64,000 nt of DNA. Source: Bacillota bacterium. Lineage in GTDB: Bacteria; Bacillota; Sulfobacillia; Sulfobacillales; Sulfobacillaceae. The notes below the pieces were generated by a model, which saw nothing but the letters and a program-made list of their open reading frames with translations, searched no databases and was not told the origin of the DNA. The translations under genes and the position numbers were made by a program. Of the stretch, positions 60,690 to 62,907 are shown one piece after another. The stretch covers positions 1 through 64,000 of the forward strand of contig JAJYHT010000080.1 of assembly GCA_021784595.1 (NCBI GenBank), read 5' to 3'. Position 1 is the stretch's first letter. The number at the start of each line of letters is the position of its first letter.

Positions 60690-61058
60690 ATGTTGACAAG
60701 TTTGGGAATATGGCTGTTAGCGGCAGCAGGGGCGTTGCAGGGAGTCTTATGGCTAACGGGGTACATCGGCGGCAACGCATTTCCCCAACCGCTCAGCGAT
60801 GTGGAAGAAGAACGGGCCTTGGCCGCTATGCAAGTGGGGGACCTTGATGCGCGCCGCCGGTTGATAGAACATAACCTGCGCCTGGTGGCCCATGTCGTAA
60901 AAAAGTATGGCAATAAGGGAGTGGAGCCTGATGACCTGATTAGCATAGGCACGGTGGGGCTAATCAAGGGGGTAGACACGTATAACGTGGGGAAGGGCAC
61001 GCGGTTGGCCACTTATTGCGCACGATGCATCGAGAACGAGTGGTTGCTGACCTACTAG
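60690..61058 (+). CDS. sigK: N-terminal half of pro-sigma-K, split gene
   Basis: Sigma-K directs late mother-cell sporulation transcription. The hydrophobic pro-sequence (MLTSLGIWLLAAAGALQGVL) is followed by region 1.2-2: NAFPQPLSDVEEERALAAM, RRLIEHNLRLVAHVVKKYG, DDLISIGTVGLIKGV and GKGTRLATYCARCIENE. Similarity ends exactly after IENE (codons 114-117). The frame then reads WLLTY and a stop, and no other frame continues the sigma factor. B. subtilis sigK is interrupted by the skin element at the same IENE codons. The C-terminal half, with regions 3 and 4, is not in the window. ATG 60690 follows AGGGAGACG. A CATACAAT box near 60520 could be a sporulation-type -10, with no clear -35. Confidence 0.88.
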   Translation: MLTSLGIWLLAAAGALQGVLWLTGYIGGNAFPQPLSDVEEERALAAMQVGDLDARRRLIEHNLRLVAHVVKKYGNKGVEPDDLISIGTVGLIKGVDTYNVGKGTRLATYCARCIENEWLLTY

Positions 61059-61179
61059 GGCGGAAAAAGCTGTAATAAAGCATTGGCGCGGGGTCTCGTT
61101 GCCAGTGGTGAGTTTGTGCAAGACGGGGGGACATTGGTGTATAGTAATAGGCAGAGTCGTGGCAATTACGAGGTGAACA

Positions 61180-61530
61180 ATGATGACCCAAGCGTCGGAT
61201 ATCGCATGTCCCATTCAACGTGCGGCGATGTTGTTTGCGGACGTCTATATCATAATTATCTTGAGAGACTTAATGTCTGGCCCCAAGAGATTTACGGCGT
61301 TGCAACAATCGGGAATTAATCCACGCATATTGAGCCAACGTTTGAGAAAATTAACCCGGGAAGGTGTTATTGCTCGGACACGATTTGCTGAAAGACCCCC
61401 GCGTGTGGAATATGCGTTGACAGAAAAGGGCAGCGCTCTGTTGCCGGTGCTTGACGCGCTTAAGAACTTCGGAGAAAAGTTTTTAGCGATACCCGAGATT
61501 ACAGAGGATTCGCAGACAATTCTTCAGTGA
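61180..61530 (+). CDS. HxlR-family transcriptional regulator
   Basis: A 116-residue winged-helix protein. The family N-terminus carries a conserved Cys (DIACPIQRAAMLFADV), then ILRDLMSGPKRFTALQQSGI, RILSQRLRKLTREGVI and the wing RVEYALTEKGSALLPVL. HxlR proteins with this Cys sense aldehydes, quinones or reactive oxygen and usually repress a neighbouring gene. ATG 61180 follows GAGGTG. A TATAGT box at 61140-61145 may be its -10. The DsrE-like gene follows with its own promoter. Confidence 0.92.
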   Translation: MMTQASDIACPIQRAAMLFADVYIIIILRDLMSGPKRFTALQQSGINPRILSQRLRKLTREGVIARTRFAERPPRVEYALTEKGSALLPVLDALKNFGEKFLAIPEITEDSQTILQ

Positions 61531-61534
61531 GAGA

Positions 61535-61563
61535 TTGCCTACTGCAACTTGCAGTTGTATAGT
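61535..61563 (+). promoter_or_regulatory. DsrE promoter with palindromic operator in the spacer
   Basis: TTGCCT (61535-61540) and TATAGT (61558-61563) are 17 bases apart. The spacer holds a perfect palindrome, ACTGCAA-C-TTGCAGT (61541-61555). A regulator bound there would block RNA polymerase, and the upstream HxlR protein is the obvious candidate. Confidence 0.7.
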
Positions 61564-61612
61564 AATAAGCGATGAAATTGATATAGCAGTGAACAAAAAG
61601 GAGCACATTAAA

Positions 61613-61951
61613 ATGGCGAAAATTGCATTTTGGATAACTGCTGGCCCAACTCTTCAAGACAAGGCGCTGGCAAATACCGTTTTGGCGGGTCGATTAAAAA
61701 TCCATCGCAACCAGGATGTCCAAGTATACTTCTTTGGACCCGGTGTGCAACTGGCAGGACAAACGGAGGGCCCGATGGCCGAAGCCTTGAAAACTTTGTC
61801 CGACAGCAGTGTGCCGATGGGAGCCTGTCCATTCAACGCCGAACAGTATGGGGTAACTGCCACGGTTACCGATAAGGGAATAGTGATGGAACCGGCCGGT
61901 GAAGCACTTGTGCGGCTGATTGACGAAGGGTATCAGATTGTGGGTGTGTAG
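61613..61951 (+). CDS. DsrE-like sulfur-relay family protein
   Basis: 112 residues with the DsrE/F fold: MAKIAFWITAGPTLQDKALA, DVQVYFFGPGVQLA, and the Cys in VPMGACPFNAEQYG, at about the position of the sulfur-carrying Cys in this family. DsrE-type proteins pass persulfide sulfur or sense redox state. ATG 61613 follows AAAAAGGAGCACATTAAA. The frame is open to 61535, but that part holds the promoter and operator. Regulation by the adjacent HxlR is inferred. Confidence 0.8.
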   Translation: MAKIAFWITAGPTLQDKALANTVLAGRLKIHRNQDVQVYFFGPGVQLAGQTEGPMAEALKTLSDSSVPMGACPFNAEQYGVTATVTDKGIVMEPAGEALVRLIDEGYQIVGV

Positions 61952-61965
61952 GATAATGATAGGGA

Positions 61966-61995
61966 AGAGCCCTAGGTTTGGGGGGCTTTTTTTTT
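61966..61995 (+). terminator. Terminator of the DsrE-like gene
   Basis: AGAGCCC pairs with GGGCTTT (with a G-T pair), and the tract continues as about nine T. Confidence 0.75.
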
Positions 61996-62000
61996 ATGAC

Positions 62001-62052
62001 CCTTAACCGAATCTTTATGCGATCCCCATCAAACCTTAATCGATTTTTAGGA
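62001..62052 (+). promoter_or_regulatory. PhoP-box-like direct repeats before uppP
   Basis: TTAACC-N5-TTTATG (62003-62019) and TTAATC-N5-TTAGGA (62036-62052) have the 6+5+6 geometry of Firmicute PhoP boxes. A GATAAT -10-like box follows at 62051. Positions 62001-62028 match 23 of 28 bases upstream of surE. The regulator is inferred. Confidence 0.4.
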
Positions 62053-62088
62053 TAATGGGACAATATGAGTCAGGATGGAGGGGACACA

Positions 62089-62907
62089 TTGTCGCTTAGC
62101 ACGGCGGTGTTTCTAGGCATTTTGCAAGGATTTGCGGAATTGTTTCCGTTTTCCAGTCTCGGATTATTGGTGATTTTGCCTCATGTTGTGCACATGACGG
62201 TGCCCACTTCCGGCGCCCGATATTTGCCTTTTGTGGTGGCGCTTCATTTAGGCACGGCACTGGCCTTGCTATGGTATTTCCGGGTCGAGTGGATGGCCGT
62301 TGTGAAGGGTTGGTTGGCATGGTGGCGTGGCAAGAGAACATCGGAAGGCCGTCTCGGTTGGCTTTTGATTTGGGGCACGATACCGGCCGGAATAGTCGGC
62401 CTCTTGCTCAAGCACCCCATTGCCACTCTGTTTGCCAAGCCCTTGTTGGCAGCGGTGTTTCTCATCATCAATGGTGGACTGATGCTATGGGGAGACCGAT
62501 GGCAAAAATCGGCCTCTCGTCATGTCGCCTCGGTTGGGTCGCTGTCGATTGGTCAAACACTTAAAATTGGTTTGTTTCAAATTCTGGCGTTAATACCTGG
62601 GATGTCGCGTTCTGGAGCTACAATCAGTGCCGGCGTAAGTGTCGGCCTCTCGTTTGAAGAAGCGGCTCACTTTAGCTTTTTGCTGGCAACACCAATAATT
62701 TTGGCGGCAAGTCTGATCGAAATTCCCAAATTGCACGGAGGGTTGCATGGTTTGGCTCTGCAAGCCTTGGTTGGAGGCGTTTTAGCCGCAATTACGGCTT
62801 GGCTCTCGACACGGTTTTTGATGCGATATTTTCAGGTTCACAACTTGTTTCGTTTGGCTCTCATCTCTATCGGATTGGGAATTGTATCATTGATTTTGGT
62901 CCATTAG
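62089..62907 (+). CDS. uppP: Undecaprenyl-diphosphatase-like protein (UppP/BacA family)
   Basis: UppP recycles the cell-wall lipid carrier by removing a phosphate. The protein has about eight spans. The second motif GMSRSGATISAGV with the catalytic-site Arg is intact. In the first motif, ILQGFAELFPFSSLGLLVI, the second Glu and the Ser pair are kept, but the first Glu is Gln (residue 13) and the His that normally follows SxG is Leu (residue 26). Activity may be altered. TTG 62089 is chosen because GGAGGGGA precedes it; ATG 62065 lacks a site. 272 residues. Confidence 0.88.
   Translation: MSLSTAVFLGILQGFAELFPFSSLGLLVILPHVVHMTVPTSGARYLPFVVALHLGTALALLWYFRVEWMAVVKGWLAWWRGKRTSEGRLGWLLIWGTIPAGIVGLLLKHPIATLFAKPLLAAVFLIINGGLMLWGDRWQKSASRHVASVGSLSIGQTLKIGLFQILALIPGMSRSGATISAGVSVGLSFEEAAHFSFLLATPIILAASLIEIPKLHGGLHGLALQALVGGVLAAITAWLSTRFLMRYFQVHNLFRLALISIGLGIVSLILVH

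Follow-up and report, generated by a model that had tools for sequence, protein, structure and literature searches.

A single-Cys HxlR regulator and a predicted operator over the dsrE promoter as a probable thiol-switch module in a Sulfobacillaceae bacterium

In the window, i.e., the whole stretch of 64,000 nucleotides that was analyzed, the adjacent genes hxlR and dsrE probably form a thiol-switch module, a reading to which we assign a probability of roughly two in three. The HxlR-type regulator would repress dsrE from a dyad centered at position 61555 and would be released by sulfane sulfur or an electrophile, and its operator would recur at sulfur genes of related genomes. We infer binding, repression, sensing by the Cys, and the inducer from the conservation of promoter and operator, the gene context, and the co-occurrence of HxlR and operator. 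The original prediction had described a complete switch, which was too strong a term, as operator, sensing, and inducer remain predicted features.

The Regulator HxlR and Its Neighbor DsrE

The gene hxlR (61180-61530, plus strand) encodes a regulator of the HxlR/DUF24 family with 116 amino acids (PF01638, E 4e-21), in which the winged-helix HxlR domain PF01638 spans residues 25-102. It contains a single cysteine, Cys10, which bears out the original prediction of an HxlR protein with a redox Cys just upstream of dsrE. By sequence, the protein matches the PDB structure of YodB (5hs7, E 1.8e-10), and the YybR and HxlR structures match as well. A tree of 30 HxlR matches with their loci and four paralogues, a subset of all matches, placed the window protein in clade A (six genomes) and 14 proteins in clade B; the membership list of both clades was taken from this tree. 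The N-terminal column corresponding to Cys10 is kept as Cys in all 20 clade A/B proteins. Regarding gene order, hxlR immediately precedes dsrE in 6/6 clade-A genomes (G002, G003, G004, G020, G029, and G000, the genome of the window), and several clade-B hxlR genes sit downstream of an MFS gene. The genome of the window also carries an HxlR pseudogene with four stops (G000:C16:31396-32009), which lies opposite a thioredoxin gene; a dyad site separates the two.

The downstream gene dsrE (61613-61951, plus strand) encodes a DsrE/DsrF-like protein of 112 amino acids and predicted sulfur carrier. The match to PF02635 (E 1.3e-6; 29.0 bits versus a cut-off of 22.7) agrees with the sulfur-relay target named at the outset. 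A Cys-Pro motif is invariant in 30/30 aligned orthologues, and the conserved Cys is predicted to be able to carry a persulfide. The 3' side of dsrE shows a terminator-like stem with a T run, of the intrinsic type (61970-61990, plus strand; 2 found by the scan versus 1.1 expected).

A Predicted Operator Across the dsrE Promoter

The dsrE promoter consists of the -35 element TTGCCT (61535-61540, plus strand) and the -10 element TATAGT (61558-61563, plus strand). As originally noted, with exact coordinates, the 17-base spacer between them is filled over its first 15 bases by the perfect palindrome ACTGCAACTTGCAGT (61541-61555, strandless; 7-bp arms and one central base), which is followed by TG at 61556-61557. 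A promoter scan of 61000-62100 returned the dsrE promoter as the sole promoter-like site (1 versus 1.1 expected from shuffles). The arrangement TTGnnn-N17-TATAGT is kept in 10/30 dsrE loci, i.e., the window and nine others from genera g1, g2, g5, and g9, and judged by this conservation across genera, the dsrE promoter is real.

Conservation extends into the spacer, where these 10 loci carry CT at a fixed place in 10/10 cases and ACT in 9/10. We aligned the 10 promoters with two perfect dyads, one located upstream of dsrE in G023 and the other between the divergent hxlR and dsrE genes of G008. In these 12 sites, CT and TATAGTA are the invariant columns, and the -10 element TATAGT is accordingly unchanged in 12/12. 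The symmetry axis of 11 related sites falls on 61555, where 62% of the pairs are complementary (8 pairs per site), 7 bp downstream of the palindrome axis at 61548. We therefore place the predicted HxlR operator at 61545-61565 (strandless), with the degenerate left half CAACTTGC, which keeps ACT, 5 bp, and the right half TATAGTAA, which includes the -10 element; the operator thus overlaps both spacer and -10 of the promoter. The left half of the window site matches the consensus at only 3/8 bases, and the axis of this site scores 0.38 versus 0.62 in the relatives. Model R1, which was built from the 12 sites and scanned across all 34 family genomes, has its best match in the genome of the window at 61546-61568 (18.6 bits, E 0.011), itself a site of the training set, followed by sites at MFS and thioredoxin loci.

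Upstream of hxlR, TATAGTAATA (61140-61149, plus strand) represents the half-site and -10 common to the dsrE promoter, and the left half-site is absent from this block. In 6/6 clade-A genomes, TATAGT lies ahead of the matched hxlR reading frame at a distance of 40-58 bp. A weak autoregulation of hxlR through the half-site alone is possible.

The Dyad and Its Predicted Regulon in Related Genomes

The full dyad WTACTATANNNNNTATAGTAW (WTACTATA-N5-TATAGTAW) was found with ≤1 mismatch at 30 sites in 18/61 genomes, compared to four sites for the reversed pattern in the same 61 genomes, the pattern having been framed after some of its 30 sites, including those of G023 and G008, were known. In 27 genomes outside the family of the window, no site was found. 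Genomes with a clade A/B HxlR contain the dyad in 16/19 cases and other genomes in 2/42 (Fisher p 6e-10, overstated by the non-independence of relatives). Restricted to family genomes, the proportions are 16/17 with and 2/17 without such an HxlR (p 2e-6, likewise overstated by kinship). Exceptions occur in both directions: G002, G038, and G039 have a clade A/B HxlR and no dyad site, and G010 and G014 have a dyad site and no such HxlR. Furthermore, G006, G018, and G026, which encode a clade-B HxlR, have dsrE orthologues without a dyad site. The conserved dyad and its co-occurrence with the HxlR clades argue that the single-Cys HxlR probably represses dsrE.

A recurrent gene class starts downstream of 27/30 dyad sites (nearest within 0.4 kb), where the class reference proteins came from the window and the site contexts themselves, and two self-reference matches (G029:C1:1751462 and G025:C1:1172777) and one site without a match (G003:C149) were counted as misses. 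The classes at the 30 sites comprise MFS transporters (17), DsrE (4, including two at 0.6 and 0.8 kb), CoA-disulfide-reductase-like proteins (3-4), TusA (3), thioredoxin (3), TauE (2), and HxlR at several sites, whereby one site may serve two genes. Pfam and NCBIfam agree with these gene classes; for the CoA-disulfide-reductase-like protein, the NCBIfam equivalog score of 412.8 lies below the cut-off of 578.8, and its substrate is only putative. One dyad site is located near an FMN-reductase/WrbA-like gene. The composition of this gene set suggests that the relatives use HxlR for a sulfur/thiol regulon.

Two individual loci may be mentioned. In the genome of the window, a dyad site, an MFS transporter gene, and a CoA-disulfide-reductase-like gene stand in a row (G000:C46:81418-84203). 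At L106 (G003:C149:1858), a perfect dyad is flanked by a transposase-like gene on one side and by the 3' end of a gene resembling mercuric reductase on the other (both assigned by eye), and no target class is present downstream.

Proposed Mechanism and Alternative Readings

In the proposed module, an HxlR dimer would bind the dyad at 61555, whose ideal form would be AATACTATA-N5-TATAGTATT and of which only the right half is good in the window. At the dsrE promoter, apo-HxlR would cover the spacer together with the -10 element and thereby block RNA polymerase. HxlR would be released once its lone N-terminal Cys is modified, for which sulfane sulfur or a related electrophile is the most likely agent, i.e., thiolation or persulfidation of the Cys would free the promoter, and the DsrE then made could carry away persulfide sulfur. 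In the relatives, the same operator would control genes for MFS transporters, CoA-disulfide-reductase-like proteins, TusA, TauE, and thioredoxin. We prefer a sulfur signal mainly because the set of DsrE, TusA, TauE, and thioredoxin matches a sulfane-sulfur cluster in B. licheniformis, in which dsrE, tusA, tauE, and thioredoxin genes are repressed by the sulfane-sulfur sensor YrkD, according to excerpts of PMC9918477. In addition, excerpts of PMC6943732 state that allicin S-thioallylates the sensing Cys of HypR and CatR and that exposure to allicin or diallyl tetrasulfane switches on both regulons; sulfur chemistry at the Cys of the window HxlR is therefore plausible.

A serious rival is that HxlR senses quinones, aldehydes, or another electrophile, with the sulfur genes acting as general thiol-stress genes, as for YodB, CatR, and HypR; we consider this a real possibility, if short of an even chance. 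Characterized members of the family respond to quinones, diamide, and HOCl (PMC8063818 and PMC6943732, in excerpts), and the commonest target at the dyad sites, the MFS transporter, would together with the WrbA-like neighbor also fit quinone or electrophile stress. The genome of the window contains hydroxyphenylacetate breakdown genes ~7-11 kb downstream. However, the genes named for the 30 sites include no recurrent azoreductase or nitroreductase class, and the recurrent classes are instead DsrE, TusA, TauE, and thioredoxin. Of the earlier idea that the switch responds to reactive sulfur, the part on sulfur handling thus gains from the regulon content, whereas the signal itself is still contested by quinones and other electrophiles.

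We regard it as unlikely that the conserved block is a promoter alone, on which another regulator or none acts. The coincidence of the right half-site with the -10 element and the occurrence of the half-site only at hxlR's own block would fit such a reading, but the enrichment of the full dyad over the reversed control and its tracking of HxlR presence would not, and the left half is part of the spacer, where a promoter needs no conservation.

The palindrome ACTGCAACTTGCAGT as the HxlR operator, which was the original proposal, is very improbable and was rejected, as it is absent from the 29/29 other dsrE upstream regions that were read, its axis at 61548 yields only 12% complementary pairs in 11 related sites, the exact 15-mer is single-copy in its own genome, where near copies with ≤2 mismatches are not in excess (13 versus 12 for the reversed control), and the window holds a background number of such palindromes (18 versus 16.3, sd 4.7, simulated; perfect arms ≥7, loop 0-3). 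Its one distinction is its placement, with one palindrome lying wholly within a TTGnnn-N16..18-TAnnnT spacer on the plus strand versus 0.05 per simulated strand (minus strand, 0), in a test picked only after the feature had been seen, and the palindrome is probably incidental. What held from the original reading is the promoter, an HxlR with an N-terminal Cys beside dsrE (also in other genera), a dyad overlapping the promoter, and, judged by the regulon content, a link to sulfur handling; the 15-mer as operator did not.

Comparison with Known Systems

The module resembles YodB, CatR, and HypR of Bacillus subtilis in the HxlR/DUF24 family, the N-terminal sensing Cys, and a TACT...AGTA inverted repeat at the target promoter. 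The operator spacing differs, as the conserved dyad reads TACT-N11-AGTA, whereas YodB prefers TACT-7-AGTA (PMC8063818, in excerpts). Furthermore, Cys10 is the sole Cys of the window HxlR, whereas YodB also uses a second one, Cys101, and the predicted targets are sulfur-relay genes here and azoreductase and nitroreductase genes for YodB, CatR, and HypR.

CstR and YrkD are CsoR-type repressors using two Cys, unlike the linked regulator here, which is of the HxlR type. The regulon of CstR/YrkD (S. aureus and B. licheniformis) is similar in its targets DsrE, TusA, TauE, and thioredoxin (PMC9918477, in excerpts), but neither sqr nor pdo figures in the classes named for the 30 dyad sites. BigR, SqrR, sHdrR, and SoxR, as described in partial sources, share with our proposal a sulfur-gene repressor released by sulfane sulfur and differ in protein family, being of the ArsR type. 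Excerpts of a Sulfobacillus acidophilus transcriptome study (PMC5114278) and of PMC4378227 do not mention HxlR, and the dsrE genes described there are hdr-linked, so that transcriptome support was not found in these texts. Among the matches listed from open-licence PMC literature, none joined HxlR with persulfide, sulfane sulfur, DsrE, or TusA. On the basis of these partial sources, HxlR switches and sulfane-sulfur regulons are each known kinds, and their combination and the TACT-N11-AGTA operator appear to be new.

Sulfobacillus grows at low pH with sulfur and metal sulfides as its livelihood; the portions of the literature covered contained no account of how it senses intracellular reactive sulfur. 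More tentatively, Sulfobacillus-type acidophiles might possess a dedicated reactive-sulfur regulon, comprising DsrE, TusA, TauE, thioredoxin, a CoA-disulfide/persulfide reductase, and an MFS exporter, in which a one-Cys HxlR would detect sulfane sulfur. In the sources as excerpted, this task otherwise falls to CsoR- and ArsR-type proteins. In one genus, sensor and carrier would reside in a possibly excised sigK element. The predicted operator and regulon make the idea of sulfur sensing testable via one small protein.

A sigK-Splitting Element Around hxlR and dsrE

The sigK gene at 60690-61058 comprises only the N-terminal half and ends after RCIENE, a split point that we take to be the skin position of B. 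subtilis. The C-terminal half follows 14.5 kb further on (G000:C12:75527-75895). Between the halves, just outside the window, lies a serine recombinase gene (~G000:C12:64858-66369) whose product has Resolvase, Recombinase, and zinc-ribbon domains; in total, the 14.5-kb insert holds hxlR, dsrE, bacA, surE, the large serine recombinase gene, and the hydroxyphenylacetate genes. Given the split sigK and the recombinase, hxlR and dsrE are therefore located inside a skin-like element in the genus of the window (also in G003 and G004), and this element may be excised during sporulation. No sigK half was found beside hxlR-dsrE in G020 and G029, for which flanks of 1.5 kb only were covered.

Further sigK elements differ in size and content. 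Those of G003 and G004 are shorter (~5 kb), with the recombinase gene before the C-terminal half, and G008 has a 2.7-kb sigK insert with Dps- and Fur-like genes. In G005 (G005:C101:31539-31901 and G005:C131:31225-31563), the N-terminal half of sigK departs from the family sequence after RCIENE, and the C-terminal half is found on a separate contig.
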